A stretch of 64,000 nt of DNA from positions 1 through 64,000 of the IMG/VR virus record IMGVR_UViG_3300026097_000013; one strand, given 5' to 3'. Below are positions 41,662-63,400 of the stretch, in pieces (the stretch's first letter is position 1; every line of letters starts with the position of its first letter). The notes under the pieces are model-generated. The model saw nothing but the letters and a program-made list of their open reading frames with translations. It searched no databases and was not told where the DNA came from. This DNA comes from a virus. Both the position numbers and the translations under genes were made by a program.

Positions 41662-41676
41662 TAAAGGTATTATAAT
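41648..41676 (+). promoter_or_regulatory. sigma70-like promoter of the ADP-heptose operon, leaderless geometry
   Basis: TTGACT (41648-41653), 17-nt spacer, TATAAT (41671-41676), then 6 nt to the hldE ATG at 41683. It lies across the nudix stop codon and would start the hldE-hldD-cupin-gmhB transcript independently of the late genes. Confidence 0.8.
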
Positions 41677-44775: not shown

Positions 44776-44786
44776 GCCTGCGCTTC
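44761..44786. terminator. Shared hairpin between converging gmhB and fibre genes
   Basis: GAAGCGCA (44761-44768) and TGCGCTTC (44779-44786) form an 8-bp stem with a 10-nt loop. It spans both stop codons, so it could end both converging transcripts; there is no T-run to confirm this. Confidence 0.55.
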
Positions 44787-47700
44787 GCCCCAATTTAGAA
44801 TAATATTTGAAGTTGCTGTTGCACCACTAACCTTATACACGTTAATTGCTAGTACGTCAGGGCCATTTGGATATGTCCCTCGGCCACCTAGTGGCGTATT
44901 TGTAAGTTCTTTAAGTTCACTAAAGTCAACTGTTGCACGTTCACCTGGAACAGCAATAAACGAGAAAATAGTTTCACCTGGTTGAGCAAAAGGTGGTTGA
45001 CTAAATGTTACTTCGACTGTACCCGAACTAGCTACTAGTGTTCCGCTATAAGAGTTATTAAACTGTATCTCGTAATATTCTGTTGTTCCAAGACTATCTA
45101 ATGTAATGTTGTTAACTTGTGTGTTAGCTGGAAATGTAACTGCTGATCCGCCAGTTACGCTTGTTCCCACAGTAACTCCTGCAGAGTCTACACTAGTTTT
45201 AGTAAAGAAACCATAGTTTCTGTTTGTTAAGTTTCCATGTCTACTAAAAGTTAACGTGTCGTTGTCGTTGACTCTATTTCCTAGACTACCGTCTAATCTT
45301 ACGAAAACTTCTTGGAATCCGCCGAAAAAGGACGGCGAGCTTATAAATGTAATTCTTCTTGTATTGCCACCCGGAATAGTTACACTGTCCCCTACTTTAA
45401 TATTTTTGCCATCGAAACCTGCGGCTGTATTCCATCTCATATACAAATAATTGTTGTTAGAGTTTGTGCCATCGTTGACCACCGCAGTTGTAGTCAACAC
45501 AGCTTGAGATGTGATGTTAGCTGTAGTTGCAGCTTCGCCTGTACTCCATACAACCGAGCCGCCGGAAGCAATCTGTGCAAAACTAGGCTGTCCACCTTGT
45601 GCAACACCTGCTAGACCTGACCAGCCAACATCTGCCGGATTAAGTGGATAATTTTGAGGATTAAGAACACCTTCAACAACAATGCCGCCTATAATATCGT
45701 TAGTTCCGTCAGTTCCGTCTGATGTAATTTCTAGACTTTGTAGTAACAATTGAGCTCGGTTTAGCAGTTCTCTTTCTCCTAAATCGCCAATAATAGCATT
45801 TGATACACTTGGTGCTAATCGAATTAAGAAAGCTGTTTGTTTTGTAGTACTAACCTCAATACCAGTTTCAGCATATGAGAAAATATAACCACGATCTTCA
45901 TCAAAGCCACCGTCTGTGATAAACGCCGAACCCCAGTGGCTAATAAGTGGTGTAATGGATTGTGATATTAATACTACACCAGTTCTAGCCGAATGTGCTG
46001 CTGCTGCTCCAGCTGTATAACTACGAGTTGCTCCTGCTTGAAAATTATTAAAAGTTGCACTTCTTGTTAATCCAGTTAAGTGATTTGAAGAACGCCCTGT
46101 GAATGTTATAATTTCATTGTCAATGTATATTGTTCCAGATTGTGGGAAAAAGCTACCATCTTCTAATTCTAATGTAGTCTGAGAGTCATCCATTGCAGCA
46201 GCAAGTTTACCTGACGGGCCTTCGTTTGAAACTTCGTAACGTACAGGCAAGTTACCCGAACGCATAAATGCTTCTGTGTTTACATTTGAGTTACGCATTC
46301 TGTGTGCAAATATAAAGTTACCGTCTGCACCACGTAGCATAAAGTCAATAAAGCCAGCACCATACCAGCTGTACTGAATACCGATCATTTGCATTTTAGC
46401 AATATCAATATCATAGCCACTGGGTCCTGTGCCGTCTAATTTGTCTAAGTTAAAGTCTTGTTGTTTAGTTTTCTTATCTACAATTAAATTAGCCTTGGCG
46501 CCATTAATGCTAACAACGCCTCGCCAATCTGGTGTTACAGTTATCTCTGTTTGACTGTTAACATGACTTACAACATGTGTCATTCCTTTGATAACAATTC
46601 TATCTCCAGCTTTTAACTGATCTTCAAATCTAGTGTTTATTCCTGTTACTAGGTTATCATCTACTTCTAGCGAAATAGTTCCTGCAAGTTGTCTAGTACC
46701 AGTACGTTGTACTGCACTTATTTGTGTGCCGTCAAATTCCCAAAAAATACCATTTTGATCATCAAAGATACCCGAACGCACTGTTGCTCCGTGCCAGCTA
46801 ACAACACTCATTTGCGAGCCGAAACCTAATACAGCATCAGTTGCTCCTAATCTGCGCTGTGCTCGAACCGTAAATCTACGTTCGTCTAGTACACTTTCTA
46901 CAGTATAATCAAATGCCGGAGGTACTGCCGTTGCAGGTCCACTATTATATCCAGGTGTCTCAACTCCTAATATTCTAATAGTTCCACCAACTTGTACACC
47001 GTGATCGTTGTCATCTGTTTCTATAGTAATTAAATCGCCAACTTCTGTTCCAGATGCTGTTAAACTACGTAAGTCGTAACTCGGTGCAAACAGCGCACCG
47101 GTTGTATACATAATGCCTTTACCTGACTGATAACGAATGTATTTCTTACTTTGACGTATTGCTTGAGCACCGTGCTGCGGACCACCTGTGCCTAATTGTA
47201 CGCCGCCATCAAATGGTCTGTGAATAAAGAAGCTATCTGGTCTTGGATAAACCGTTGCTTGTATAGATTGTGTTGATGTATCAATATTTCCAGGAGATCT
47301 TGCTAGATATCTAAGTTTGTTTACGGCTGTAATTTCAGTAGCAAGAAACGAGCCTGCTGCTAGTTTATGATTATTAGTTCCATCATCAGAATTTATTGTT
47401 GTAATAAAGGTGCTGCCAGGAACTAGTCCGTGAGCATTCGGAAATGTAACTTCTAGCGTAGGCAATGCTTCATAAGTAATCTGTTCATCTTTAGCAATTG
47501 TTGCTGTAGTAGCCTCTGTCATTAATATAGTTGATATTAAATCAAAATTACTTCCATATTCTGCTTCTGTATAATCATAAGTTAATCCAGTTATATCTCC
47601 ACTAGCTCCTGCTGTACTAACAGTTAACACAATATCGTTAGTTGGTGATACACCATCAAATAGCGTTCCAGGTAAAATAACACGATCACCAGTTTTATAT

Positions 47701-50700
47701 CCGGTTCCTCCTGTTGATACACTAACGGAGTCATATGCTGCAAAGTTTTTAGCAACATCAAATGTTGCCGATGTTCCTAAAGGTTGTTCACTAGTGCCCT
47801 CTACACTTGTATATGTTCCGCCAGGAGTAGCAACGGTACCTGCACTACTAATTGTAGATATTACACCAGATTCAAGGGCATCAACAGTGTCGATTGTAAT
47901 AGTTAAATCATTTGTAGGAGATTCACCTGAAAGTAATAATCCCGACACGTTAAGTTCTTGTCCGGCTCCGTACTCGGTGCCAGGTGTATTAATAACTACA
48001 CTATAGAGGCCGCCACTAATAGATACATCAAACGTTGCACCTGATCCAATAACATTCGAACCGGACGATATTGCATTTTGCGAACTAGAAGTAGATGCTG
48101 TACCTGAGATAGTAAAATCTGTAATCTCACCGCTTCCTCCAACATTATCAATAGTAATAGTTAAATCATTAGCAGGTGATGTGCCGCCTAATTGCGTTCC
48201 TATTACAGTAATTGTTTCTGTTGGTAGATAATTAGTACCTGCTACATCAATAGTTACACCATATATTCCAGCAGCTTGATCTATTGTAAATACTACTCCT
48301 GTTCCAGAAGTACTAGTAGTAGTAAATCCTGTTTGGCTACTTAAATACGTATTAATAACTGGCGGCGGCGTTCCTGAATAACTTAAACTAGTTATTGCTC
48401 CGGCGCCATCTATACCGTCAACTGTTATATATAAATCGTGAACACCGTCGGCGCCGCCGATGTCGCTACCTAATATTAAGATTATGTCATTTACTATATA
48501 GCCTGATGAATTATCAGAGGTATCATTAGCAGTTCCTGTTATACTTGCTGTTAACACCTCGCCGCTTGCACCAATTGTATCAATAGTTATAGTAGCATCA
48601 TTAGCAGGTGATTCGCCGCCTAACTCTGTTCCGAGAATTGTAAAAGTTTCTGTTGCGAGATAATCTTGTCCAGCTGTATCTATAGCAATGCTATATACAT
48701 CTAAAGTTTTAGTTATTTCAAATGTTGCGCCGAAACCTGATGCACCGTTATATGACAAAGTTGGATTATTATATACTACAGTTCCAGTTGACATAATAAC
48801 ACTAGTATATGCTCCTTGATCATACTCTAAGTCAAATGCCGCGCCTGTTCCAACTCCTCCACTATATGTTGCACTAACAGTAGTTGAAAGTGTTCCGTCC
48901 CAGTGTGCTCCGCTAAATGTTATAGTAGTAATAGCACCTAAACCGTCAACACCTGTAACACTTATAGTAAGATCGTTAATTGAAGTTTGTCCACCTAAGT
49001 CCAAACCATCTATAATAATTCTGTCGCCTACTTTATAATCACTACCAGCAGAATTAATGACAACTGCATAATCTCTCGATACGTTTTGAGTTTGTGTAAC
49101 ATCAAATGTTGCGCCAGTTCCTATTACACTATCATTTTGGCCAGAAACTGATGTATATGTTTTTACGTTAGGTATTAATTCAGAAGTAAAACTATCATTA
49201 AAATCAATAAACGAAGTATCTACATTATTAACATAAATTGCTGTGCCGTCGCCGCGATCTACTGCTAGGTTGTTAACAATTCCGGCAGTCGAGTCGAGAA
49301 ATACTCTGTTTTCACCAATTGTAACATTATCAGATATAGCTGGCGAAATATATGTACCGCCGCCTGCACTTGTATCATTAATGCCTGTTACTTGAGAGCC
49401 TGTTGGTATATTAGCATTAACTAAAGGAGCACCAACACCCGGAGATGGACCATCAAACGGAATAATAGTACTACCAGTTAAAACATCTAATTCTGAAGTT
49501 ATTGTACCGTTAAATCCATTAGAAATTACATCTACTTGTGGACTTGTACTTATAGATGCTCCTGTATAAAATGCTGCTTCTCTTAATTGTGTATAAGTTG
49601 TAGAAAGTGTAGTTGGGTTAACTGTACCAACTTTAGATTTTGCATAATAATTAAACGTATTATTAGTAGGAACATCATTAATAACAAATGATCCTTCAGC
49701 TCTTGCTGCTCCAGGTACTCCGTCTTCAAGTGCTTTAAGAGTTATAGGAGTTCCGGCTTCAAATCCATGTGCAGCTACAGTAGTAACCGTAATTAAAGAC
49801 TGACCTATACCTTCTGTACCTGCTGATGCATCTGTTTCAACTCTAAGTACTGGAGTATCTGTTCCTGGAACTTCGTAAATTGAAGGGTAGCCTCTCATAG
49901 TCGAAATAGCAGCCCATTTAGTAGGCTGTAGACCATATTCAAAGTCAGCATCAAGCATTGATACTGGCATAGCAGCTCTCGGGCGTTCAATAGCATCTGT
50001 ACCAAAGTCATAAGGTCTAGTAGTTACTATACTTTTTCCGTTTTCAATTTTTTCTATAAAAATTTGTAATTCGTCTGTTGGATTATGTCCGCTTGTGTTA
50101 TAATTGAGTGTGATTGTAGTAATAGCATCAGTTGTTTCTAGATATTTAACAAAGTCTGTGTCTGTTGCTATACTATCAACTTTAAGACTAATTAGTCCAC
50201 CTGTAGCAGGAGCACTAAAATTGTATATAATATCATTAGATGTTACATTGGTGATAAGTATTATTTGATCTAAATCGTATCTACCTTGAATTTTAATTGT
50301 TCCTACACCTGTTGGTACAACTGTAGGAAACGCAGATATTCCAGTTGTAATAACATCAATAGTAGTTTGAACAAGGTCGCCGACAATTGTTGATGTTCCT
50401 GATTCAGAAGTTTTAGTAACGTCAATAGTTTGAGATACTTCGTTATTGCTAGCAGAGTATGCAACATTTGCTAAAATATTTGTTTGTATAAGTGTTTTAA
50501 TAAATTCGTATGTTTGTATTTCAGGCTGACGGTCGCCGTCAATTTGTGCTACATCTTGATCCCAATAATATTTTACAACATTATATGTATTTTCGTTGCC
50601 GCCGTATCTTAAATCTTTTAAGTACGCATCAATATTGTATCCAATGTCTCTTTCGCATTTTTCTGCATTATACGTATAGCCTATAAACCCTGCTGCATCT

Positions 50701-50849
50701 GCTGCTACTTGATCTGCAATCCAAGCAGTTGCTTCTTTTTGTATGAAAGTTTTGTTTGCATTTAATAAGCTATAAGCATCAGGGTACAGATTATCAGCTG
50801 CGCCTAATCCTGGTTTAAATACGTAATTTTTTATTTGTGTCTTTGCCAT
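44772..50849 (-). CDS. Giant tail-fibre/baseplate-type virion protein with internal repeats
   Basis: 2025 aa, Gly/Thr/Ser/Asn-rich, almost free of Cys. The N-terminus (YNAEKCERDIGYNIDAYLKDLRYGG) is a motif shared with the fibre protein at the right edge. Residues about 590-1095 carry tandem beta repeats with a GT-x-L-GG-x-SP-x-ND-x-TITID core (see the repeat feature). Later parts contain NGIFWEFDGTQ, a HRMRNSNVNTEAF segment and a C-terminal beta domain. The size and repeats fit a long fibre or baseplate spike that binds the host surface. It is the largest gene of the window and lies next to a heptose operon. A late promoter is not obvious upstream. Confidence 0.75.
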   Translation of the reverse strand: MAKTQIKNYVFKPGLGAADNLYPDAYSLLNANKTFIQKEATAWIADQVAADAAGFIGYTYNAEKCERDIGYNIDAYLKDLRYGGNENTYNVVKYYWDQDVAQIDGDRQPEIQTYEFIKTLIQTNILANVAYSASNNEVSQTIDVTKTSESGTSTIVGDLVQTTIDVITTGISAFPTVVPTGVGTIKIQGRYDLDQIILITNVTSNDIIYNFSAPATGGLISLKVDSIATDTDFVKYLETTDAITTITLNYNTSGHNPTDELQIFIEKIENGKSIVTTRPYDFGTDAIERPRAAMPVSMLDADFEYGLQPTKWAAISTMRGYPSIYEVPGTDTPVLRVETDASAGTEGIGQSLITVTTVAAHGFEAGTPITLKALEDGVPGAARAEGSFVINDVPTNNTFNYYAKSKVGTVNPTTLSTTYTQLREAAFYTGASISTSPQVDVISNGFNGTITSELDVLTGSTIIPFDGPSPGVGAPLVNANIPTGSQVTGINDTSAGGGTYISPAISDNVTIGENRVFLDSTAGIVNNLAVDRGDGTAIYVNNVDTSFIDFNDSFTSELIPNVKTYTSVSGQNDSVIGTGATFDVTQTQNVSRDYAVVINSAGSDYKVGDRIIIDGLDLGGQTSINDLTISVTGVDGLGAITTITFSGAHWDGTLSTTVSATYSGGVGTGAAFDLEYDQGAYTSVIMSTGTVVYNNPTLSYNGASGFGATFEITKTLDVYSIAIDTAGQDYLATETFTILGTELGGESPANDATITIDTIGASGEVLTASITGTANDTSDNSSGYIVNDIILILGSDIGGADGVHDLYITVDGIDGAGAITSLSYSGTPPPVINTYLSSQTGFTTTSTSGTGVVFTIDQAAGIYGVTIDVAGTNYLPTETITVIGTQLGGTSPANDLTITIDNVGGSGEITDFTISGTASTSSSQNAISSGSNVIGSGATFDVSISGGLYSVVINTPGTEYGAGQELNVSGLLLSGESPTNDLTITIDTVDALESGVISTISSAGTVATPGGTYTSVEGTSEQPLGTSATFDVAKNFAAYDSVSVSTGGTGYKTGDRVILPGTLFDGVSPTNDIVLTVSTAGASGDITGLTYDYTEAEYGSNFDLISTILMTEATTATIAKDEQITYEALPTLEVTFPNAHGLVPGSTFITTINSDDGTNNHKLAAGSFLATEITAVNKLRYLARSPGNIDTSTQSIQATVYPRPDSFFIHRPFDGGVQLGTGGPQHGAQAIRQSKKYIRYQSGKGIMYTTGALFAPSYDLRSLTASGTEVGDLITIETDDNDHGVQVGGTIRILGVETPGYNSGPATAVPPAFDYTVESVLDERRFTVRAQRRLGATDAVLGFGSQMSVVSWHGATVRSGIFDDQNGIFWEFDGTQISAVQRTGTRQLAGTISLEVDDNLVTGINTRFEDQLKAGDRIVIKGMTHVVSHVNSQTEITVTPDWRGVVSINGAKANLIVDKKTKQQDFNLDKLDGTGPSGYDIDIAKMQMIGIQYSWYGAGFIDFMLRGADGNFIFAHRMRNSNVNTEAFMRSGNLPVRYEVSNEGPSGKLAAAMDDSQTTLELEDGSFFPQSGTIYIDNEIITFTGRSSNHLTGLTRSATFNNFQAGATRSYTAGAAAAHSARTGVVLISQSITPLISHWGSAFITDGGFDEDRGYIFSYAETGIEVSTTKQTAFLIRLAPSVSNAIIGDLGERELLNRAQLLLQSLEITSDGTDGTNDIIGGIVVEGVLNPQNYPLNPADVGWSGLAGVAQGGQPSFAQIASGGSVVWSTGEAATTANITSQAVLTTTAVVNDGTNSNNNYLYMRWNTAAGFDGKNIKVGDSVTIPGGNTRRITFISSPSFFGGFQEVFVRLDGSLGNRVNDNDTLTFSRHGNLTNRNYGFFTKTSVDSAGVTVGTSVTGGSAVTFPANTQVNNITLDSLGTTEYYEIQFNNSYSGTLVASSGTVEVTFSQPPFAQPGETIFSFIAVPGERATVDFSELKELTNTPLGGRGTYPNGPDVLAINVYKVSGATATSNIILNWGEAQA
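47570..49090 (-). repeat. Tandem beta-repeat array inside the 2025-aa protein
   Basis: Five clear copies and one degenerate copy of a roughly 75-100-residue unit. Each begins with a Y/D-x-V-x-I/S-x-x-x-G-x-x-Y strand, continues to LG-x-xSPANDxTITI, and ends with a G-x-I-x-x-I/L-x-x-S/T-G strand. Examples start near 49070, 48690, 48275, 48005 and 47735. Protein identity is moderate while DNA identity looks lower, so the array is old rather than freshly duplicated. Confidence 0.8.
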
Positions 50850-50852
50850 GTT

Positions 50853-51743
50853 TTATAATCCAAATGCTACTGCTAATGCAACCGCGGTACGATCTACATA
50901 TTGTTTATTTGCTACACTACTATTTATAGTAGGGTCATTACTAACTGTTGCAGAAGTAAATGCTGCTGTTGTAGGTGTAACGGCGCCTATCGTAGTGTTA
51001 TTTATAGTTGTATTTTCTATTGGAAGATCAGATCCTGTAGAACTTATAGTACCTAATTTATTTCCATCTATTTTTAGTACAATTTGATTAGTAGCTTCTA
51101 ATTCTAAATTTGTAGGTGAACTAATATTAGTTATGCCAATACCGTCGATATTAAGAGATCCTGCAACATATAAATCACCTTCAATTCCTACACCGCCTGC
51201 TACTGTAAGAGCACCGGAAGTAGAGCTTGTTGATGCAGTTGTTGAGTTGATATCAAGAGTACTAAACACTCCTACAGGATCAACTACATTTATAATGCCA
51301 TATATCGTTCCAGTATCATTACCATAATATAAAATATCAGGAGCAGATATTGGAGTTGAAAAATATAATCTTCCGCTATTTTTTCCTTGGGCATCTACTC
51401 CTGTTGTTGCGTCAGAATGTCTTAGCCCAACATTGTATAAGGTTAACGTATCGCCGACACTACTAAAAATACTAAATGTAAAATTAGTAAGATCTAAGTC
51501 AATTGTAGTTGAAGAATTTCTAGTAAATGTAATACTAGGATTGTTAGTTGCATTATTAATTAATCTAAAATTATTATCAACTTCTTCAAAGCTAAAATCA
51601 GCAGCAACGTCAACGTCTTCAACAACGTCTTGTACTTCAAGTGTAATCGATCTAGCTGTAATATTTCCTACAGAATCTACAGTAAAACTAGGACTTTCAA
51701 ATCCATATTTTGATCTTAAAGGTGCGTTTACAATCGTTGACAT
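50853..51743 (-). CDS. Fibre-type virion structural protein
   Basis: 296 aa, Thr/Ser/Asn-rich and beta-rich. The segment SGALTVAGGVGIEGDLYVAGS is a signature of phage fibre proteins with trimeric beta structure, and the C-terminus with VANKQYVDR is also common in fibre and baseplate proteins. No Cys or enzymatic motif. It starts behind a late promoter with a leader and overlaps no neighbour; 3 bp separate it from the giant fibre gene, so the two form one late unit. Confidence 0.7.
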   Translation of the reverse strand: MSTIVNAPLRSKYGFESPSFTVDSVGNITARSITLEVQDVVEDVDVAADFSFEEVDNNFRLINNATNNPSITFTRNSSTTIDLDLTNFTFSIFSSVGDTLTLYNVGLRHSDATTGVDAQGKNSGRLYFSTPISAPDILYYGNDTGTIYGIINVVDPVGVFSTLDINSTTASTSSTSGALTVAGGVGIEGDLYVAGSLNIDGIGITNISSPTNLELEATNQIVLKIDGNKLGTISSTGSDLPIENTTINNTTIGAVTPTTAAFTSATVSNDPTINSSVANKQYVDRTAVALAVAFGL

Positions 51744-51762
51744 ATCTCACTCCGTTCAATTA

Positions 51763-51769
51763 TATTTAT
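51763..51769 (-). promoter_or_regulatory. T4-type late promoter with leader (fibre gene 50853-51743)
   Basis: ATAAATA with a leader of about 15 nt containing GGAG before the ATG at 51743. Confidence 0.7.
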
Positions 51770-51781
51770 CAATTAAGATAG

Positions 51782-52198
51782 TTATCGAGAAAGTGGAGTC
51801 AATGTATGAAAGTATTGAGCAGTAAAGATAACCTTAGTTCCATTATTTTGTCCTGCAGGTGATGATATTGCCGGATTTAGTATGACATCAACATAACTAT
51901 TGTTAACTACAGGCTCAATAGTAATTAATTCACGTAGTGTATGATTTCTAGCATACACTACAACACTTGCTCGATCGTCAGTTGCTGTTATTAATGCTTT
52001 AATTATTTCTTTATTATTAGCATCAAGATCTGCAGATATAGTATATTCTACTGACGAAAATTCTCCCACGTGCCATCGATCAAGTGTTGTGTTTTCATAT
52101 ACTTGCTTCCAGGGACCTTTATGACTAGTCCCTGAATTATTTTTAAAAAGTAATGTATTCTTTAATCCGTCTGTTAAATATTTTTGTAAGTTTTGCAT
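51782..52198 (-). CDS. Hypothetical virion protein
   Basis: 138 aa, beta-rich, with SSVEYTISADLDANNKEI and a C-terminal KVIFTAQYFHTLTPLSR. It resembles small structural proteins placed between fibre genes in marine myophages, but no name is known to me. It has a late promoter motif upstream, so it is probably a virion part. Confidence 0.55.
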   Translation of the reverse strand: MQNLQKYLTDGLKNTLLFKNNSGTSHKGPWKQVYENTTLDRWHVGEFSSVEYTISADLDANNKEIIKALITATDDRASVVVYARNHTLRELITIEPVVNNSYVDVILNPAISSPAGQNNGTKVIFTAQYFHTLTPLSR

Positions 52199-52217: not shown

Positions 52218-52224
52218 TATTTAT
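52218..52224 (-). promoter_or_regulatory. T4-type late promoter with leader (for 51782-52198)
   Basis: ATAAATA at the 3' end of the carbamoyltransferase gene; the predicted start is about 15 nt upstream of the ATG at 52198, with a GGGG stretch in between. Confidence 0.6.
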
Positions 52225-54053
52225 CAGTTCTTTACCGTAATTAGCTTTCCGTATTCAGGAAGATACAAATACTCGATTTTACTATGCGTTAATGTACGCA
52301 ATGCATCGTCAAGTGTTTCTACAAGAGGTTCACCGCCTAAGTTAAAGCTTGTGTTAAAGATAATTGGAACTCCGGTGCGCTCTTTAAATTCTTTAATAAT
52401 TCTGTAATATAGAGGATTGTCCTTTTCGTTTACTGTTTGAATTCTGCATGTACCGTCAACATGTATAATACTAGGAATTTTTTCAGCAATGCCTGGTTGA
52501 CAGTTTACAGCATACATCATGTGCGGACTATCTTCCATGCCACGCAAGTCGAACCATTCGTGTGCATCCTCAGCAAGTATTGATCCAGCAAACGGTCGGA
52601 AGTATTCACGACGTTTAATTTCGTTTACAAAGTCCTTGCCATCTTCGAATGTCGGATCAAACATTAAGCTACGATTACCTAATGCACGTGGTCCTGCTTC
52701 CGAGCGTCCTTGAAAACATGCTACAATATTTTTACTTGTCATTAGGTCAACAACATCTTTGTCTGTAGCATTTCTGATTTCTGCATTATAGTTTTCAACA
52801 ATTGAATTAATTTCATCGGATGTATATGTGTATTCAAATCCTAAATAAATTTCTCTCCCGTTTAGTTTATCAGGTATTTCAGTTATGGAATGAAATCCAA
52901 AAAGTGCTACACCAATAGCTGTGCCGCCATCGTTTGATATAGGTTCGACATAAAAATCAATTCCTTCTTCGTTTAAGCGATTTAAGAAATAATAATTAGC
53001 AACGCAGTTAAGTGCATACCCTCCGGATAATACTACTTTTTTCTTTCCAGACATTTCTACAGCTTTAAGTATAAGATTTAGAACTTGCTCTTGTGTTTCA
53101 GTTTGAACTGCGTATGCAAGATCTCTACGATTTTGTTCTAGTGTGACATCATCAAAGTTGTTTAGTTCGGTATTCAATTCGTCAAATAACTGCGTATTTA
53201 CAAAGGCTCCTCGAGGATAATAAGGAACAATAACATTTGGATCAGATAATTCATAGTCTCCAACTTTTTTAAATAGTGAAGGAATTTTATCGTTAGGCTT
53301 GCCGTATGGGAATAGTCCCATAGTTTTTCCTGCTTCAATTTCTTGAAATCCGCAATACTTTGTAACTGCTTCGTATGTTTTGGTAATACCTGCATTTCTA
53401 GATAATATAGCATGGAATGTATTATCTATTTCACCATACAAAAATTCAGCTTCTTTTTCTTTATCGATAATTGTTAATGTAGTATCTTTTGTTGCAGAAT
53501 GTTTGTATAAATGATTAAATGTTGCAGGGTAATTACAATCTAAAATTGATTCAATTTCCCATGTTGATACTACATCAGTATCATTTGGATTAAATTTTGG
53601 ATCTATACAAATCTCTAAAGGTATTTCAGAACCACAACCGTCTACTACTAGTGCTACAGCTTCGTCAAACCCAGATCGATAAAAGGCACAGGCTGCATGT
53701 ATCTTGTGGTGCTGATGACTAAGATCATACACCTGAGGATGATTATGAGGATCTGCATGTTGGTCAATTAATCCTAATTTTCGAGCTAACCCAATATACA
53801 TATTATCGCCACTAAAATCAATAGTGCCAGATGTATGCATTCCTTGAGTATGAACAATAAACATATAATCAACTTTATCTGTATACTCTTTTACTTTTAC
53901 CATTGCAGCAAATGGACTGCCGTCGTATTTTTTTCTGCTAAGGCGCTCTTCTTCAATTGCAAATACAATTTTACCATTTTTTAATAAACATACACCTGAA
54001 TTGTGTCCTCGAGAGATGCCTAATACCCAAAGATCTTTTTTTATTTCATTCAT
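52224..54053 (-). CDS. Carbamoyltransferase (NodU/CmcH family), full length
   Basis: 609 aa from the ATG at 54053; an in-frame GTG at 54065 would add four residues and overlap more. N-terminal Kae1-like domain with GISRGHNSG, the metal-binding HQHHKIHA near 113-120 and VDGCGSE; then LSGGYALNCVAN; then the C-terminal YrdC-like region with FQGRSEAGPRALGNRSLMFDP and RPFAGSI. It uses carbamoyl phosphate and ATP to carbamoylate a hydroxyl group of a sugar or other acceptor. Together with the GT9-like transferase it forms the start of the enzyme cassette between fibre genes. A second, shortened relative lies at 3192-4157. Confidence 0.92.
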   Translation of the reverse strand: MNEIKKDLWVLGISRGHNSGVCLLKNGKIVFAIEEERLSRKKYDGSPFAAMVKVKEYTDKVDYMFIVHTQGMHTSGTIDFSGDNMYIGLARKLGLIDQHADPHNHPQVYDLSHQHHKIHAACAFYRSGFDEAVALVVDGCGSEIPLEICIDPKFNPNDTDVVSTWEIESILDCNYPATFNHLYKHSATKDTTLTIIDKEKEAEFLYGEIDNTFHAILSRNAGITKTYEAVTKYCGFQEIEAGKTMGLFPYGKPNDKIPSLFKKVGDYELSDPNVIVPYYPRGAFVNTQLFDELNTELNNFDDVTLEQNRRDLAYAVQTETQEQVLNLILKAVEMSGKKKVVLSGGYALNCVANYYFLNRLNEEGIDFYVEPISNDGGTAIGVALFGFHSITEIPDKLNGREIYLGFEYTYTSDEINSIVENYNAEIRNATDKDVVDLMTSKNIVACFQGRSEAGPRALGNRSLMFDPTFEDGKDFVNEIKRREYFRPFAGSILAEDAHEWFDLRGMEDSPHMMYAVNCQPGIAEKIPSIIHVDGTCRIQTVNEKDNPLYYRIIKEFKERTGVPIIFNTSFNLGGEPLVETLDDALRTLTHSKIEYLYLPEYGKLITVKN

Positions 54054-54054
54054 A

Positions 54055-55011
54055 TTATAGTCCACTTAAAATTTTACCTGCTATTTGTTTAATTTGATCG
54101 TCAGTTAAATTCATTGCTGACTCATTTTTTCTATCTGCACACTCGTCTAAAGTGATACGTATAGGGCTGTACTCTTTATTATTTTTATTAAAATCAAAAA
54201 TATTAAAATATTTATTGTTAGGATAAGATACATTTTCAGCAAATGTTGACCCTAGCACCACATAAGATTTTTTATTAAACGAATGTGCGATATGCTGTCC
54301 TATCGAATCACATCCTATAAATGCATCTGCGGCATTTATCATTCCAAACCATTTCCTCAAATTTACGTTTTCAATAAAAAATGTTTCTTGTTTACATCCG
54401 TATGCGCTAAAATCTACATTAAATTCATTCATTAATAATATAGAACATCTGTGTTCAATCTTTTTTATTAAATTTGCAGCTGATGCAATAGTAAAAGACC
54501 TACCAGTCGAATCAATCGGCCCTGCTGATGTTTCTACATTATTTAATGTTATACCTTTGCCAAACGGTTGAAAAATCATCAGAGGCTTGTTATGTTTATT
54601 CCTCATATCGTTGGCCATATTTAATGCTGTATGCTTTTCTTCGTTATTTAAATATATAGACGGCGCTGACAGATTATCATCTAAAGTTCCATTAATTTCG
54701 ATATCAAATGCTTGTGCAATACTGCATTTTTGATTATAGTATTCCCATACATAATAAGGCTCCGGCGCTACTATGTTTCTATCTTTTAGTTTATCTTTAA
54801 ATAAATGAGGTAAGTTTGACGGATATGATCTAGCATGCAATGACGGATGTCCTGAAAATGCTTCATATGCAAATTCTGAAAATATTACAAAATCATCGTC
54901 TGGATTATTTTCTAGATATTTTTCTAATGCCGGAATGGCGCACACAACTCTTCCAATGCCGCCATTAATATAGAATGCAGTATTACGTTCTTTGTTGTTT
55001 ATTTTTTTCAT
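54055..55011 (-). CDS. GT9-like (heptosyltransferase-type) glycosyltransferase
   Basis: 318 aa. The GT-B plan of ADP-heptose transferases is visible: GGIGRVVCAIPALEKYLENN at the N-terminus, a mid IFQPFGKG strand and the donor-site loop NAADAFIGCDSIGQHIAHSFNKKSYVVLGST, as in the D-S-G-x-x-H-x-A motif of WaaC/WaaF. The exact donor is not fixed by sequence, but with hldE/hldD in the same genome ADP-heptose is a strong candidate. Its stop is followed 1 bp later by the carbamoyltransferase ATG, and it overlaps the oxygenase gene by 4 bp. Confidence 0.75.
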   Translation of the reverse strand: MKKINNKERNTAFYINGGIGRVVCAIPALEKYLENNPDDDFVIFSEFAYEAFSGHPSLHARSYPSNLPHLFKDKLKDRNIVAPEPYYVWEYYNQKCSIAQAFDIEINGTLDDNLSAPSIYLNNEEKHTALNMANDMRNKHNKPLMIFQPFGKGITLNNVETSAGPIDSTGRSFTIASAANLIKKIEHRCSILLMNEFNVDFSAYGCKQETFFIENVNLRKWFGMINAADAFIGCDSIGQHIAHSFNKKSYVVLGSTFAENVSYPNNKYFNIFDFNKNNKEYSPIRITLDECADRKNESAMNLTDDQIKQIAGKILSGL

Positions 55012-55646
55012 AAGTTTAACTCATTTAATGTTATTGTTGTTCCGAGGGTTCCTTTTACAAAAACATTAAAAGATAAACTTATTCTGTTTTTGTTTGAATT
55101 ATTAGGACTTACTTCGTGAAACAACGTTGAAGGAAAGAAAATAATATCATTATTTTTTACAGGAACAGTCCATATATTTGAATTAGTTACATTATATGTA
55201 GAAACATCGATTTGTAGTGTGGGATTATTTGTAATAGTATCATTGTTATTAGAAATAAATGTTATACTATCTTCGGGTGTTGTATCTATATAATAAACTC
55301 CACTTATTAAAGAATTACTATGATTGTGTCTATGATGACTAGAACCAGGCGGATTAAAATTTAACCAAGATTGTGTAAGATAAAATTCATGTTTAGGATC
55401 TATAAATAATACGTTGTTAATATATTCATTAAGACCAGACATAATTCTATCACGTATTAAACTGTAAGAATCTAAATTCAACACATTAGTATTAGTTGAT
55501 GAAAGGTTTCCTCCAACATTTTCACGAGTTTTTAATTGTTCGGTTGTTGTGTCATGTACTTCGGTTATATCTGAATATTTGTTATATATAAAAACCGGAG
55601 TACTAAAAAGTAATAATGTATTATCTAAAGATTGATTTTGATTCAT
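55008..55646 (-). CDS. Putative 2OG-Fe(II) oxygenase (TIGR02466-like)
   Basis: 212 aa. A HHRHNHS cluster (residues 104-110) provides the first metal ligands and the strand NDIIFFPSTLFHEVSPNNSNKNRISLSFNVF gives the distal H177 and R188, the layout of the putative 2OG oxygenase family TIGR02466/PF13759. HxH replaces the common HxD. Substrate unknown; it lies between a similar oxygenase and the GT9-like gene, so it may act on the same product. AAGGAT ribosome site before the ATG. Confidence 0.75.
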   Translation of the reverse strand: MNQNQSLDNTLLLFSTPVFIYNKYSDITEVHDTTTEQLKTRENVGGNLSSTNTNVLNLDSYSLIRDRIMSGLNEYINNVLFIDPKHEFYLTQSWLNFNPPGSSHHRHNHSNSLISGVYYIDTTPEDSITFISNNNDTITNNPTLQIDVSTYNVTNSNIWTVPVKNNDIIFFPSTLFHEVSPNNSNKNRISLSFNVFVKGTLGTTITLNELNL

Positions 55647-55656
55647 TTTTTATCCT

Positions 55657-56325
55657 TTAGTTGCAATCTAGAGATATTCTAATATTTCCAGAAACGCTTA
55701 TTCTGTAATCATCCGAAGTATAAAATGGATATACACAATGATTCAACGTAGCAGGAAACATTAAAATAGTTCCTTCCCATGTCTTATCAACCGGAACCGG
55801 TGTAGTTTGTATTCTGCCTAGTATATCATTGTAAATAAAAGTAAATTTTGAAGTATAAGCGCCCGATGTGTCTGTATTATCTGATTCGTGCAAGATATCA
55901 GAGTTAAGAGGAAAATAAGTTTCTTCATCTTTTAATTCATAAGGTATTTTAATCCAAATAACAAAGCTTAATACACCCGAATGATGATGTATAGGGTTAA
56001 ATTCATATTTTTTTTGTTTATTGACCCACATAGAATCAACAATTAAATTATATTTTTTAGATTTTGAAACTTCTTCAAATGTATCAAGAAATCCTGGATT
56101 ATTAATCTGCCAAGTATCTGCCATTGCTAATAGAAATTCAGACATATTTTCCTTAATATGATTTAAAGAATATTCTTCTTGCATATGTCCCAAAAGCTTA
56201 TGATTATATTTCTCTCCTGTGTCACCCATAGTATCTATAACAGATTTTAAATTTTTAAAAATATCAAACGGAAGTTTAGACTCTAATACACCGAGATTAT
56301 TAAGTGCTTTTAATGATAATGTCAT
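55657..56325 (-). CDS. 2OG-Fe(II) oxygenase-like protein with HHH motif
   Basis: 222 aa. The helical N-terminal half is followed by FNPIHHHSGVLSFVIWIKIP (H113-H115), and the strand GTILMFPATLNHCVYPFYTSDDYRISVSGNI provides the distal H196 and R208. This is the cupin-type oxygenase order found in phage homologues of this length. It is a near-neighbour of the previous enzyme but only distantly similar. Its stop is 10 bp from the next ATG, so both belong to the cassette. Confidence 0.7.
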   Translation of the reverse strand: MTLSLKALNNLGVLESKLPFDIFKNLKSVIDTMGDTGEKYNHKLLGHMQEEYSLNHIKENMSEFLLAMADTWQINNPGFLDTFEEVSKSKKYNLIVDSMWVNKQKKYEFNPIHHHSGVLSFVIWIKIPYELKDEETYFPLNSDILHESDNTDTSGAYTSKFTFIYNDILGRIQTTPVPVDKTWEGTILMFPATLNHCVYPFYTSDDYRISVSGNIRISLDCN

Positions 56326-56330
56326 GTTTT

Positions 56331-57908
56331 CTATGTATCCTTATCATTGTATATATACCGAGATAACCAATCACAAGCACTAAGCTGAGTGCTTGCAGCA
56401 TTTTTCCATTGATTTACTTTGTTATATCTATCGTATAAAAAATTTTCACAAAGATCGCGCATACTTGTCTGCATACCCAATTCTTGCTTTACAATGTCAA
56501 TTTCATTGTATACATTATAATTCATACCGTTAGCTATACATACAATACCTGCACGTCCAGTATGACTAAGTGTAAGTGTTTTCTTTACATATAGATCATT
56601 AAATCCGCTAGTACTAGTGCGTAAATTTGAATCGTAAACTCTTTCTCTATTTTTATTCCAGTAATCTGAATCACTTCTTATAGACAAAGCGTAATGCAAT
56701 GCAACAAATTCTGCAAAATTCTGATAAAAATTTCTTATGTGTGCGTTATACACATCTCGATCAAATTGATTAACTACTGGTCGATCTACATGACGACAAA
56801 ATTCTAACAAAAATTCATGAACACTTAATAATCCATTACTTTCTAGTGGCTCAATGAATGCAGCAGCCAACCCAATGCCTAATACATTTTTAACCCATAT
56901 ACGTTCATAAATACCTGTTTTAAAATTAATGTGCTTAAAATTAAGATCATCTGTAACTCTATTAGGATTGTGCAATGTCATTTTATCCGAATTAAGATGA
57001 TTTTTAAATTCTTGCAGAGCATCTTCGTCTGATATAAATTCATCTGAATATACGTATCCTGTACCTATTCTAGACCAAAGCGGAATATTCCAAACCCACC
57101 CGTTACTTAGTGCAGTACAATTTGTATATACTTCTAGTTCTTTTTCTTTATCAGTATACGGTATTTGTACAGCCCATGCCTTGTTATTTGGTAAAATATC
57201 TCTATAAGATACAAATGGCTCTTCTAGTGCTTTACCTAAAAGTAAACTTTCAAATCCAGTGCAATCTACATAAAGATCTGCTGTTAATTTTGTTCCGTCT
57301 TCTAAAATAATTTTAGATATACCGTTATCGTCTGTAGGAGCGTCAACAACTGTTCCTACTACATGTTTAACTCCACGAGGTATACAATAGCGATCTTTAA
57401 GATATTTTCCGAATAATAACGAGTCAAAATGAAAAGCTGTATGATAATCAAATCTAAAATCATCAAAACTACCGTCTTCATTAGTTGATATTTTATTTTC
57501 GTTTACTAATGCCATTACAGGCCAAAAGTTTTCTGCAAAGTCGCTAGAATGAGTTTCAGGATAGTAAGCTTTTTTTAATTGCCAATGATTATAATTAATA
57601 TCTTCAGTTTCTATAGGATCACCAAACGGATAATGGAATCCTCCGTAGTCTTTATCATAAAAGTCAGTAAATTTGATACTAAACTTATAACTACCATTTG
57701 TATGTTTTAGAAAATCTTTGTCATCTATTCCGAGGTACGCTGTCCAGTCACGAATAAATCCTAAGGTACTTTCACCCACACCAATTTTTGGTATATCATC
57801 ACTTTCAACTAATGTAATAGATTTATCGGGAAATTTTCTAATCAGTGTTGCAGCAGCCATCCATCCAGCTGAGCCGCCGCCTACTATTAATATACTATTA
57901 AATGCCAT
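56331..57908 (-). CDS. Flavin-dependent tryptophan halogenase-like enzyme
   Basis: 525 aa (PrnA 538). The FAD dinucleotide-binding GGGSAGW (10-16), VGESTLGFIRDW (44-55), catalytic Lys79 in the stretch SYKFSIKF (position as in PrnA K79), the GWVWNIP (270-276) signature and FIEPLES (351-357) with the second catalytic Glu are all in place. The residues needed for FADH2-dependent chlorination or bromination of an aromatic ring therefore look intact. Halogenases of this kind occur in T4-like cyanophages, but the target is unknown. It is the first gene of the cassette. Confidence 0.9.
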   Translation of the reverse strand: MAFNSILIVGGGSAGWMAAATLIRKFPDKSITLVESDDIPKIGVGESTLGFIRDWTAYLGIDDKDFLKHTNGSYKFSIKFTDFYDKDYGGFHYPFGDPIETEDINYNHWQLKKAYYPETHSSDFAENFWPVMALVNENKISTNEDGSFDDFRFDYHTAFHFDSLLFGKYLKDRYCIPRGVKHVVGTVVDAPTDDNGISKIILEDGTKLTADLYVDCTGFESLLLGKALEEPFVSYRDILPNNKAWAVQIPYTDKEKELEVYTNCTALSNGWVWNIPLWSRIGTGYVYSDEFISDEDALQEFKNHLNSDKMTLHNPNRVTDDLNFKHINFKTGIYERIWVKNVLGIGLAAAFIEPLESNGLLSVHEFLLEFCRHVDRPVVNQFDRDVYNAHIRNFYQNFAEFVALHYALSIRSDSDYWNKNRERVYDSNLRTSTSGFNDLYVKKTLTLSHTGRAGIVCIANGMNYNVYNEIDIVKQELGMQTSMRDLCENFLYDRYNKVNQWKNAASTQLSACDWLSRYIYNDKDT

Positions 57909-57930
57909 AAAAAAAATACCTCCTATAATG

Positions 57931-57964
57931 TATTTAATTATAACATCATAGGAAGCATTGTCAA
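57931..57964 (-). promoter_or_regulatory. Dual promoter of halogenase cassette: sigma70 plus overlapping late box
   Basis: Minus strand TTGACA (57959-57964), 16-nt spacer and TATAAT (57937-57942), with a TAAATA late-type box (57931-57936) immediately downstream. An AGGAGG ribosome site follows before the ATG at 57908. The same early/late overlap occurs at gene 32. Confidence 0.7.
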
Positions 57965-57977: not shown

Positions 57978-58502
57978 TTACTCTTCAGGATCTGGATCTG
58001 GGCCTGGATCTGGAATCACAACTCCGGGAATTAACGGCCATTCAATCTCAGATTCATGTGATATTGTATCCCAATCAATTGTGTCGGGCAAGTCTCTTAG
58101 TTGCTGTCTATACGTTGCCCATTCTGCTTTTTCTGCATCACTAAGTGGTGCATCCGGCAATTGTGTCCAATCCGAAGCTGGTAATAAATTTAGACGGGTA
58201 CGTTCCATAAATCTAAATCGCTTTTCCAGTATATCAATTGATTTTTCAATCCACTCTTGAGTAAAAGTTCCGTCTTCATTTTTTATAATATCGCCTGGCG
58301 CTATGTCTACATCAGTATCGCCGTTGACATAGTCTCTAATTGAATCATATACCGGAGCATAACCTTTAGCACGTACTTCTTCTTCAGTAAAGTCCCATGT
58401 TTCTTTCATTATATAATGTATATTTTCGTTAGAAATATATGTAGAGTCAACCATATCTCCATTTTCATCTATTCTTATATAGTTTACATTTTGTAAATTC
58501 AT
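57978..58502 (-). CDS. Tail-fibre assembly chaperone-like protein
   Basis: 174 aa. The region ERTRLNLLPASDWTQLPDAP, followed by LSDAEKAEWATYRQQLRDLP (about 108-150), is the hallmark of Phage_tail_APC/tail-fibre assembly proteins, in which this helical part grips the fibre. The C-terminus is an unusual PGPDPDPEE-type proline/acid tail. It directly follows the Gly-rich fibre gene on the same strand, the usual order for a fibre and its chaperone. AAGGAAC site before the ATG. Confidence 0.82.
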   Translation of the reverse strand: MNLQNVNYIRIDENGDMVDSTYISNENIHYIMKETWDFTEEEVRAKGYAPVYDSIRDYVNGDTDVDIAPGDIIKNEDGTFTQEWIEKSIDILEKRFRFMERTRLNLLPASDWTQLPDAPLSDAEKAEWATYRQQLRDLPDTIDWDTISHESEIEWPLIPGVVIPDPGPDPDPEE

Positions 58503-58522: not shown

Positions 58523-60046
58523 TTATAAGTTATGTGTGTTACAGCAAGGCCACGCTCTATTTGCGCCCCAAACAATTCTAACAACACCCGGCCCGCCCCA
58601 GCCGCCGCCGTGTGACGTGCCGCCGCCTCCGGCGCCGCCGCCGAACTTTCCGCCGCAATTATAACCGTTTCCTCGTCCATTCGAATACGGCTCACCTGGA
58701 TTACCACAGCAACCGCCTGATCCGCCTTGGCCTGCTCCGCCGCTTGTGCCGTGACCTGTTCGTCCATGGCCGCATCTGCCTTCACTGCTGCTACTACCAT
58801 AACAGCACATGCCACATGCGCCAGTGCCGCCACCGCCGCCAGTACCGTAAGTTGAACTGTGATAAGAAGTTGCGCTGCCCCCTCCGCCACCGCAACCACG
58901 ATATCCCGGAGTATTAGAGTTAGCAGGTGATCGGCCACAATAGCCAGCTCCGCCGCCGCCTCCGCCAGCAGTACCCGGATAAGCAACCATTCCGTAACTA
59001 CCGCAGCATGTTCCGCTGCCGCCATTTACATCACTGAAGCTGTAACATCCGCCGTAACATCCACAACATCCGCCGCAGGCTATCATACCCGGCCAGCATG
59101 AATATCCACCAAGGTTTTGGCTGTTAGACCAGCATGCTCCACGTCCGACGCGGATACAATAAGATTGACCTGGTGTAACTGGAATATTATTAGCCCATAC
59201 AGAGCCACCGCCGTGCCCGCCGCAGCCTGCCCAGTCGTAACGGCCGCTGCCGCCAGCGCCGATTGCTAGTACATTAACACTTGTAACTCCATCTGGGGCT
59301 ACCCATGTATAATTACATGTGCCGCCAGCTTGGCCATATACACCTTCATATTGTGCTTGTCCTTTAACGGCTTCAAAATAGAATTGTTTGCTAAATGCTG
59401 TAGTTCTATACGAACCTTCAGGCATTGATGTATTACGTACACCTAGTGTAAAGTTATAATTATTAGTTGTTTCGTCACTAGATTTTCCTGGAAAAGTCAT
59501 TAGTCCGTTGTTATCAATAGTTACATTAGACGGTAAGTTGCCTCTGTTAGTAATTGCCCATTCTGTAGCTGTACCGCTATTACTGAATTGAAAAGTTTCC
59601 GCAGCAGTAAGTGTTACATTATTGTTATTAGTAGTAATACTAGGATAATCGTTTGTTGTGCTAACAAATATAGTTATATCAGCTTCGTATACAACATCAT
59701 ATTTTGAATCAGTAATATTTATCGTTAATACTGACAATGGATCCATGCTAGCAGCCGATCCTGATAGTGTTCCACTAGATGATAGAGTTAGTCCGTATTG
59801 TGCGCCATCTCGCCACGCAAAGGTATATTCTGAATCACCAAAAGCACCTGTTACGCTAAGTGTAACATTTAAACTTTCGTTTGCATTTATATAATCTGGA
59901 AGAGGATCTCTATCAAGAGATGCGCCGCCAGCTAAAACAAATCCTGTTCCGTTACTTGTTAAAATTAGTCCAGTATTTTCAAAGTCTGCATCCTCGATTG
60001 CTAGACCACTACCTCTGTTTTTTGTTAATCCTATAAATCTTCCCAT
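58523..60046 (-). CDS. Tail fibre or adhesin with Cys/Gly-rich tip domain
   Basis: 507 aa. The first 240 residues are beta-rich cadherin/fibre-like repeats without any cysteine. After GTCNYTWVAPDGVTSVNVLAIG (the start of glycine-rich domains of the PF21722 type) the last 265 residues are dominated by glycine and contain all 23 cysteines, many as CC, GCYGGC or CGGCC clusters. The layout resembles polyglycine-sandwich adhesins such as the gp38 tips of T4-like phages, which determine receptor choice. Cysteine-rich versions may be held by disulfides or metal. The chaperone gene follows directly. Confidence 0.8.
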   Translation of the reverse strand: MGRFIGLTKNRGSGLAIEDADFENTGLILTSNGTGFVLAGGASLDRDPLPDYINANESLNVTLSVTGAFGDSEYTFAWRDGAQYGLTLSSSGTLSGSAASMDPLSVLTINITDSKYDVVYEADITIFVSTTNDYPSITTNNNNVTLTAAETFQFSNSGTATEWAITNRGNLPSNVTIDNNGLMTFPGKSSDETTNNYNFTLGVRNTSMPEGSYRTTAFSKQFYFEAVKGQAQYEGVYGQAGGTCNYTWVAPDGVTSVNVLAIGAGGSGRYDWAGCGGHGGGSVWANNIPVTPGQSYCIRVGRGACWSNSQNLGGYSCWPGMIACGGCCGCYGGCYSFSDVNGGSGTCCGSYGMVAYPGTAGGGGGGAGYCGRSPANSNTPGYRGCGGGGGSATSYHSSTYGTGGGGGTGACGMCCYGSSSSEGRCGHGRTGHGTSGGAGQGGSGGCCGNPGEPYSNGRGNGYNCGGKFGGGAGGGGTSHGGGWGGPGVVRIVWGANRAWPCCNTHNL

Positions 60047-60403: not shown

Positions 60404-63400
60404 TTATGATGATAAAAAGTAATTCAATGCAACTGGTGCACCTTTGATTCCGCCAGTAAAATTAACTTTCTGTGTTATATTTATCTGTGCATTAGTTGTA
60501 GTTGTAATTTCCTGTCCAGAAACTTTAATTACGCCTGCTGTTAAACTATTAACATTTAGTTCGCCTTGGCCTCCGCCAATTTGGCTAGCAATATAAGTTT
60601 TAATTGCCTTTTGTGTTGGAACAATATTATCACTATTAGCAGTAAACGTACCGTCTACACTAAATTCAGTAATAACAGCACCTGTGCCGCCTAGTGCAAC
60701 TGCACCAAGTTGTAGCTCATTCAATCCAGTAATGTTAAACGCATCAGCATTAAGTGTTGCTACACCAGTTGATTGTTCAACGTTGAACAACCCACCAACT
60801 CTAAAGTTACCGTCTTGGTCAGTAGTGGTGTAGAACACTCTACCGCCGCCGCCAGTAAATGTTTCTTTTGTTGGATCGATTGGATTAACTGGAGTGTTAG
60901 GGTAGTTAGTATCTTCAAAATTTCCAGTACCGATATCCAAGAAGTCGTGTCCTGTTAGACGAACTTGTGAATATCTAATTCTAAATTCAATAGGATCGTC
61001 GTGATCTGGTGCATGAGTTATAGTTATTTCTGGACTTACTTGTAATTGTGCAGTATAAGGACCAGTTCCTTCAACATTTCTAACATTTACAAGTTTATAG
61101 TAATCTCCAGGAATTCCTTGGAATGTTAGGTTGGAGCCAGCTTGTGGTATTTCTGTTAATCCACTTACATTAATAAGCGTACCGGGCTGATATCTATCAG
61201 CATATCCGTCACCAACAACGTCAGCTGCTGCTGTTGCCATTCCACTACCACGATTTGTCCATGTAGGCTGTGTTAATACACCGTCGCCGATTCTAACTTC
61301 ATGCGGTGCTTCTACTGTATTATTTGGATCAGTAATAGTCATTGTAGGAGCACTTGTGTATCCTTGTCCAGGATTCCATATACGAATTTCAGTAATCTTA
61401 CCGTCTTCGACTCTTGCGCGAGCTGCTGTAGTATCAGCATATAATCCGCTAGCAGGTGCAGTAAACGATAATCTAGGTTCAATCGAATATGATGTTGTTT
61501 CGTTTAGCGTAGTCTCAATAGCAACACCAGTTACATGATCCCAGCCTGCTGTATCATCACTCATTTTCTTAATAGTAGCAAGCTTTGTACCGCTATTGTA
61601 AGTATCAATATATCCGTATTGACCTGCGCCTACTCCGGATGTAATATATATTGCCATGCCTACATATGCTGCATCAAGTCTAGTATCGGTGTTTGATAAA
61701 GTTATTTGTGTAGCATTACCCGATTGTGCTACATTTTCACTAGTTATATAATCAAGGCCGCCAAAGTTTTCAGCTGGATCTAATAATCTAACTTCAAATA
61801 CGCCGCCATTAACTGTTTGCACTTCATCAATGAGAGCGCCGAAGCCTTCGCCTGATGGTGTAATAGTAGTGGCACCAGCTGTGTAATTTACTCCTGCATT
61901 TCCGTATTCAAGTGTAAGAATATTATTTCCGTCGGTCATAACATTTGTAACAAACGCTTCAAGTGCGTTGTTATTAACGTTACCAGTGATCGGAGTTTCA
62001 GTAATATCAACACCTTCAGCAACTGTACCAAATGCGCCGTATGATGAGTTACCGTTTGTAGCGCGAATCTTACCACCGTTCTCTGCCAAGTAACCGATGT
62101 GTCCATAGTATGAGAACACAGATACAAGTTCTGTTCTGCCTAGGTTAGTACACCATACGCCAATACCATCACTGATAATCTGTGTAAAGTCGTTAGCAAC
62201 AATTGAGTCGTTACCGCCATCATGTAGATCGCCGTCAATCTTACAACCGACACAACCTGTACCAAATGTAGTTACGTTTTGTACGTACGGTGATTTGTTA
62301 ATAATCCATGCGTCGAGGTGTTCTGGTCCCCAACCTGGATCAAGACTTACAAATGCACCTGCTGTTGGACGTTTTGTGCCGTAAACATTTGCAGTAGTTA
62401 GTGACCCAGATAGATCTGCTACAGTACAATTGCGCAAACCTGTTCCGTTACGCATATAAAACATATCTTCTGTTGTACTTCCGCCGACAGCATTTACATA
62501 ATAACGTGCATATAATAATGACTTATAGTTTCCTGTATAAATTAAATCATGCTTAATAGCGTCAATATATCTGTGGATATCTCTTTCGCACTTTGCAACA
62601 TCATATTCATAAGAAGGATATGTATCTGCAATATACGCTGTAACTTCTGCTACTAAGAATGCTCTGTTTGCTTCAAGTGTTTCAACAGCATATGTATAGT
62701 CAGTAGTAGTATTTGGAGTATTTGATCCTGCGCTTACAGGTACAGTCGAATCGCCAGTTGCACCGTTAACACCGTAGTCAATATAATCATAAATTTGTTG
62801 CCATAGACCGGCAGCATCAACACCTGCGCTCGCGCTGCCTGCTGGTGACGTTGTTACTGGATCTAATGAATTTCCTGTAGTCTTTGTAACTACACCGTGT
62901 GTAATAACGTTATTTGTAATTGCTTGTAGTCTACTAATCGCATCAAGAGTGTAAGGTGTATCACTACTATCAACTAGTACACCAGCAGGTGTAATGCGTG
63001 TTGATCGTAATTCGTCGCCGATAACTGCTGTGTTTTCAGGAACAACAATCGGCAGTACTTCTGAAAATTGTCCAGTTTTAACAAATATACTATTTTGAGG
63101 TTTACGTTCAGCTGGAACTTCTGTAGTATTACCAGCAGTAATTGCATCAGTAACAATATTAACTAGTGTTTCTGCAGTCGCTTGTGCATCAGCTTCTTCT
63201 ACAAAGTCAGTATTAATATATTGGTTTAATGAGCCTCTAACTGTTGCAGGAGCAAGGTTTGATAAAATTGCATCTGTTAATGTTTTAATATAATTTAGTC
63301 CTGCTGCTGTTTCTGTTTGATTGCCTGCTGTATATGTATCTCCAGCACTATTAAAGTATGTCAATGATTGTACTCTAGAACGTGCATTGCCGCCGTGTGA

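Follow-up and report, generated by a model that had tools for sequence, protein, structure and literature searches.

The window examined here comprises bases 1-64000 of the linear record IMGVR_UViG_3300026097_000013 (120,484 bases), which represents a large marine bacterial virus, and our subject is a cassette of enzyme genes that it carries at 52224-57908. A check of the open reading frames (ORFs) of the window revealed five intact enzyme ORFs in this interval, all on the minus strand, encoding a halogenase, two 2-oxoglutarate (2OG) oxygenases, a GT9-fold transferase and a carbamoyltransferase; the cassette sits between a glycine-rich fibre adhesin with a chaperone and other structural genes (Table 1). 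A previous inspection of the DNA letters (hereafter, the sequence-only reading) had described such a cassette amid fibre genes on one strand, and the ORFs and their order are as it described them, with identities now assigned through Pfam and structure. The dN/dS ratios of the five genes, measured against three relatives, are 0.08-0.31, which indicates purifying selection, and the cassette is not a chance insertion. Our results support its description as the gene set of a tailoring pathway; the conserved arrangement of the loci, an ADP-heptose operon and a decoupling hairpin had been missed.

The linkage of the cassette genes to fibre genes was counted over 91 transferase loci, a few of which share one contig and in which several missing neighbours represent contig ends. 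The carbamoyltransferase gene lies within 2.5 kb of the transferase gene in 90 loci, a glycine-rich protein is encoded in 81, and a fibre chaperone, often less than 130 nucleotides (nt) from the transferase gene, in 85; the set of adhesin, chaperone, transferase and carbamoyltransferase occurs in about nine of ten loci. The genes follow the order glycine-rich adhesin, chaperone, transferase, (SGNH-like gene) and carbamoyltransferase, often with operon-tight spacing, and in some loci the enzyme genes occupy the same place but lie on the other strand from the structural genes. These observations bear on the explanation that the cassette is ordinary hotspot cargo, that is, auxiliary genes that have gathered amid fibre genes without being functionally related to them. 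A hypervariable host-recognition region has been documented here in related phages (PMC7029224), but the order from adhesin to carbamoyltransferase stays fixed across loci that differ in orientation and flanks, and the enzyme set covaries with the adhesin type; we thus consider such cargo improbable. The SGNH-like gene, an esterase/acyltransferase type, is present between the transferase and carbamoyltransferase genes in 44 of the 91 loci (for example, L005 10984-11910 and L007 10977-11894), with FGCSFT ... DxxH motifs recognized by eye.

The halogenase is associated with one type of adhesin. All 13 halogenase-bearing transferase loci in view encode adhesin type A, and among the 78 halogenase-free transferase loci, 75 encode type B alone and 3 encode A or A together with B. 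Halogenases that have no transferase nearby usually still stand beside fibre, glycine-rich or chaperone genes. In the GT9 tree, both halogenase-bearing lineages were grouped (support 97/86, with a long-branch warning), whereas a quick carbamoyltransferase tree separated them, requiring two changes; this pair of trees is consistent with adaptation of the transferase to its acceptor and with action of the carbamoyltransferase on the sugar. The most economical reading, to which we assign a probability of about 0.5, is that the cassette provides the tailoring part of a system for adhesin modification. The sequence-only reading had suggested modification of fibre proteins, glycan decoration of virion or host, or a small halogenated molecule; the first fits the linkage best, given the fibre set in roughly nine-tenths of loci and the pairing of the halogenase with one adhesin type, and its product and substrate would be those proposed below. 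Other approaches to the adhesin yielded little: a tblastn search against isolates gave no match, perhaps owing to the low-complexity filter, structure prediction reached a pLDDT of only 46, and the fibre chaperone, used as an unbiased anchor, retrieved too few loci. Three loci (L005, L007 and L028) contain, in the slot before or near the transferase gene, arrays of up to three small glycine/cysteine-rich proteins with chaperones interleaved; these proteins show CCxWTVP and CCC motifs, and their cysteine content is striking for cytoplasmic assembly.

The GT9-like gene had no Pfam or NCBIfam match, and we therefore term its product "GT9-fold" rather than file it as a GT9 member; in PHROGs it belongs to phrog_8954, a family without functional annotation. 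Because a transferase sequence profile gave no significant match against the PDB, structure was used for its identity. An AlphaFold2 model based on 57 relatives (pLDDT 89, pTM 0.87) was compared as a monomer and gave VIA Z-scores of 23.1 with the GT9 structure 3tov, 21.3 with WaaF, 19.6 with WaaC and 19.5 with TibC bound to ADP-heptose; the next fold families, UDP-GlcNAc epimerases and other GT-B proteins, reached only about 12. The predicted fold is that of GT9 ADP-heptose heptosyltransferases, which are the clear best matches, and the former label "GT9-like" is correct at the fold level (Z 19-23 to GT9 members). We found 438 relatives of the transferase in viral contigs, and 84,980 cellular genomes yielded only 7 contigs, all from marine metagenome bins. 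All 7 carry phage-type glycine-rich adhesins (two or three in six, one in the seventh), and given these adhesins, the cellular homologues are probably binned phage. The transferase family is nearly virus-only.

Genes for a possible donor are located 8-11 kb from the cassette, where HldE, HldD-like, cupin and GmhB-like proteins are encoded in a plus-strand operon (41683-44775); the HldE, GmhB and HldD assignments score below the strict NCBI cut-offs. A match to the HldE adenylyltransferase was detected in all 23 isolate records with a close transferase, many of those with both genes being repeats of one phage, and in only 102 of 50,697 phage records overall. In two close relatives, L140 and L142, the heptose operon has no GmhB gene. 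The HldE of the window matches that of L144, a phage lacking the halogenase, with a higher score than those of its halogenase-bearing relatives, which suggests recombination.

The heptose genes can also be read in terms of the main rival explanation, modification of the host surface, in which carbamoylated heptose would be added to lipopolysaccharide (LPS) or exopolysaccharide and block superinfection or receptor trapping. The LPS heptosyltransferases WaaC and WaaF are as close to our model in fold as TibC, both operons have early-type promoters, and the literature interprets phage glycosyltransferases of this region in this manner (PMC7029224). Heptose is absent from cyanobacterial LPS (PMC4390846), and ordinary LPS core is therefore an unlikely sugar target in cyanophages such as P-SSM2, S-SSM7 and the S-CAM phages, yet these carry the transferase and HldE. 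Host-surface modification does not predict the link between halogenase and adhesin or the adjacency of chaperone and transferase, and the halogenase requires an electron-rich, usually aromatic, target. We regard this explanation as unlikely, although it deserves the most attention among the alternatives.

The halogenase matches Pfam Trp_halogenase (1e-102), and its best PDB match is VirX1 of cyanophage Syn10 (6qgm; 8e-99, 39% identity). Its GxGxxG, K79-equivalent, WxWxIP and chloride-site ES motifs are intact here, where the stretches read GGGSAGW, NGSYKFSIKF, GWVWNIPLW and FIEPLESNGL, and in every close relative; by this motif test, it is predicted to be a flavin-dependent, VirX1-like halogenase. 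The carbamoyltransferase matches Carbam_trans_C (PF16861, 6e-59) and Carbam_trans_N (PF02543, 7e-27), with PDB matches to 7xb6, TobZ (3ven) and GdmN. Both its N and C domains are present, and the His, Asp and ATP-site motifs are kept in 69 sequences, which marks it as a putative TobZ/NodU-type enzyme; the catalytic residues of both enzymes, as had been claimed, are intact in the window and in relatives. In four loci (L090, L092, L103 and L104), the transferase and carbamoyltransferase genes are surrounded by three to five genes of the halogenase family and four or more 2OG oxygenase genes; among the additional paralogues WxWxIP is mostly missing, and these may be something other than halogenases.

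The alignment of the halogenase with PrnA ends at residue 423 of 525 (PrnA 413), leaving the last 100 residues unaligned, and it is with the corresponding region that PrnA contacts free tryptophan. Because this part does not align, free tryptophan, which the sequence-only reading had suggested as an assay substrate, is not favoured as the target. The same observation counts against a small diffusible halogenated and carbamoylated glycoside (toxin, signal or defence) of the kind made in aminoglycoside or septacidin-type pathways. A halogenase, a glycosyltransferase, a carbamoyltransferase and oxygenases do form a natural-product toolkit, small molecules are the substrates of TobZ and GdmN, and VirX1 accepts many small aromatics in vitro (PMC8407142); however, no scaffold, transport or resistance gene was recognized in the cassette, and the conserved coupling to fibre genes would be left unexplained. 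We consider a small-molecule product quite unlikely.

The two oxygenases match Pfam 2OG-FeII_Oxy_5 (2e-22 and 3e-10) with conserved HxH...H and R residues, and oxygenase A matches 3bvc and 2rg4, structures without functional annotation. Oxygenases, glycosyltransferases and carbamoyltransferases are enzyme classes that occur in DNA hypermodification systems, and the cassette might thus modify phage DNA bases for restriction evasion. The oxygenases belong to PF13759 rather than to a TET/JBP-type family, the cassette is located in the fibre module, and we know of no DNA role for GT9 enzymes or ADP-heptose; this explanation is very improbable.

The sequence-only reading had proposed a dual early/late promoter before the halogenase gene. 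The early part, which stands directly upstream of the halogenase gene and inside a hairpin, matches the consensus fully and is conserved, whereas the late part was not supported: its motif TATAAATC (57975-57968) is not conserved in relatives, and TATAAATA is not enriched within the window (6 found versus 10 expected). The hairpin has z-scores from -6.1 to -8.6 across six tested sequences, and the Shine-Dalgarno (SD) sequence is fully paired in 8 of 8 sequences despite their differing arms; this evidence consists of individual folds, pair counts having been left unused as the MAFFT alignment misregisters three sequences. RNA from the expected start of the halogenase's own promoter does not include the left arm and is largely unstructured. 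With the SD sequence paired in read-through RNA and free in its own transcript, the halogenase would therefore be translated from the latter only; that is, fibre read-through RNA should not be translated at the halogenase gene, and its own transcript should. The sigma70-like form of the halogenase and heptose-operon promoters suggests early use. Upstream of transferase genes in mostly halogenase-free loci, promoters showed no clear excess (at least 10/12 in 8 of 49 versus 7% of shuffles), and we therefore claim early control for this lineage only.

Highly stable hairpins of -31 to -45 kcal/mol, some terminator-like, were observed between the chaperone and transferase genes in six other loci (L006, L020, L048, L052, L060 and L079); they often pair with the SD sequence, and decoupling may be general. 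Elsewhere in the window, strong sigma70-like promoters stand exactly 35 nt before an ATG, with no SD sequence, at 3179, 5857, 14619, 37788 (-) and 41683 (+). They imply leaderless early mRNAs for a DnaB-like helicase, a primase, HldE and two proteins of no assigned function, and the spacing at HldE is conserved in five relatives.

Table 1. Positions of the cassette genes, their neighbours, the heptose operon and the control elements in the window.
Feature	Position	Strand	Basis
Putative TobZ/NodU-type O-carbamoyltransferase	52224..54065	-	Pfam PF16861, PF02543; PDB matches; motifs
GT9-fold transferase, predicted heptosyltransferase, 318 amino acids (aa)	54055..55011	-	phrog_8954; AlphaFold2 model and fold comparison
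2OG-Fe(II) oxygenase A	55008..55646	-	PF13759/TIGR02466; HxH...H...R
2OG-Fe(II) oxygenase B	55657..56325	-	PF13759
Predicted flavin-dependent halogenase, VirX1 relative	56331..57908	-	Trp_halogenase; 6qgm match; motifs
17-bp hairpin, -10 in loop, SD in right arm	57915..57959	-	-20.5 kcal/mol, z -6.4
Early-type promoter TTGACA-16-TATAAT, extended -10	57937..57964	-	12/12 consensus; no more than one mismatch in any close relative
Tail-fibre assembly chaperone, Phage_tail_APC	57978..58502	-	Pfam 3e-15
Glycine/cysteine-rich adhesin type A, proposed acceptor	58523..60046	-	phrog_4474; alignment; link to halogenase
Long fibre/structural protein, upstream of adhesin	60404..63769	-	Position kept in most loci
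Three structural genes (2025, 296 and 138 aa), downstream	44772..52198	-	Conserved cassette partners
Early-type promoter of heptose operon, leaderless spacing	41648..41676	+	11/12 here; 12/12, same spacing, in five relatives
HldE, heptose-7-phosphate kinase and adenylyltransferase	41683..42945	+	NCBIfam NF008454 2e-103, below strict cut-off
HldD-like ADP-heptose epimerase	42920..43744	+	TIGR02197 5e-71, below strict cut-off
Cupin of heptose operon	43728..44123	+	Cupin/"cysteine dioxygenase" genes also in P-SSM2 and S-SSM7 clusters
GmhB-like heptose bisphosphate phosphatase	44116..44775	+	NF006506 1e-41

On the basis of the genes, fold, linkage, selection, promoter and hairpin described above, the donor sugar, acceptor, order of steps, chemistry, timing and benefit of adhesin modification might be as follows. 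Early in infection, two strong promoters would direct the synthesis of the ADP-heptose enzymes HldE, HldD and GmhB and of the five cassette enzymes. The oxygenases and the halogenase would act on the fibre-tip adhesin, which is rich in glycine, cysteine and aromatic residues, and functionalize its side chains or a glycan that it carries; heptose would be attached by the GT9-fold enzyme and carbamoylated by the carbamoyltransferase. The decorated adhesin would be mounted on the fibre with the help of the adjacent chaperone, and this modification could adjust how well it binds the receptor or how stable it is. The promoter hairpin would mask the ribosome site of the halogenase in fibre read-through RNA, the enzyme being made from its own early transcript. 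We tentatively extend this proposal to marine T4-like phages, which may possess a dedicated modification of fibre-tip adhesins by heptosylation and carbamoylation with a phage-made donor, one branch adding halogenation and hydroxylation fitted to the adhesin type.

Several points weigh against adhesin modification. The loci cannot be counted as independent, the association of the halogenase with an adhesin type rests on two lineages, the grouping of these lineages in the GT9 tree may be long-branch attraction, and the fibre linkage could reflect a general insertion hotspot, a host-recognition cluster (PMC7029224). GmhA was not found in the 120-kb record, and HldE was present in 30 of 50 IMG/VR transferase contigs, most of which are fragments. 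The glycine loop of the transferase contains an invariant Arg (GGxGR) near the position of the GT9 catalytic Asp (TibC D110), given which its donor or activity may differ. Early expression would also fit host-surface modification.

The terminase of the virus (27088-28695) is closest to those of PA5oct-type jumbo Pseudomonas phages (54%), and neither psbA nor psbD was found in the fragment; the virus is therefore probably not a standard cyanophage, and the cyanobacterial host that we had assumed at first was dropped. The combination of a jumbo-type terminase with cyanophage-like genes in the fibre region might reflect a mosaic genome or a clade of marine jumbo phages that has been poorly sampled.

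The "tryptophan halogenases", carbamoyltransferases and 2OG oxygenases of cyanophages have been unexplained auxiliary genes since 2010 (PMC3037559, PMC2984593), and guesses at their role include antibiotic protection (PMC2984593) and pyrimidine synthesis (PMC9146016). The components are already known in cyanophages, and the system reading is newly proposed here; as far as we searched the open-licence literature, we found no description of the assigned transferase fold, the rule of gene linkage, the association with adhesin type or the masking hairpin. The link to fibre adhesins, the heptosyltransferase fold and the heptose supply together lead to one testable proposal, namely, chemically decorated receptor-binding proteins, which, if true, would account for the class of native substrate on which VirX1 and other viral halogenases act.

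Among known systems, the phages P-SSM2 and S-SSM7 encode the same transferase family (42% and 39%), a carbamoyltransferase and heptose genes in one cluster beside fibre genes, and S-SSM7 additionally has a halogenase-family gene and 2OG oxygenases. Unlike in our window, however, their transferase is annotated "hypothetical", their heptose genes are contiguous with the transferase gene and their adhesins are of type B; the halogenase homologue of S-SSM7 is just 28% identical. VirX1 of Syn10 shares the catalytic motifs and is likewise encoded directly downstream of fibre-region genes, but no transferase or carbamoyltransferase gene was found in the surrounding 20 kb of Syn10. For TibC and AAH, we know of no carbamoyltransferase partner. 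TibC heptosylates adhesins, and the GT9-type fold, the ADP-heptose donor and the adhesin acceptor proposed for the cassette would be those of TibC/AAH (PMC4358343), although the cassette transferase has no detectable sequence similarity and is shorter (TibC aligns from residue 86). The cassette carbamoyltransferase resembles TobZ/NodU in both domains and in its conserved motifs but differs in having a GT9-fold enzyme as its partner. In the T4 genes e, soc and 49, hairpins mask the ribosome site, and an inner promoter yields RNA in which this site is free. The hairpin described here is similarly predicted to hide the SD sequence in read-through RNA and has a promoter inside it, which, in contrast to that of the T4 genes, is of the early rather than the late type.

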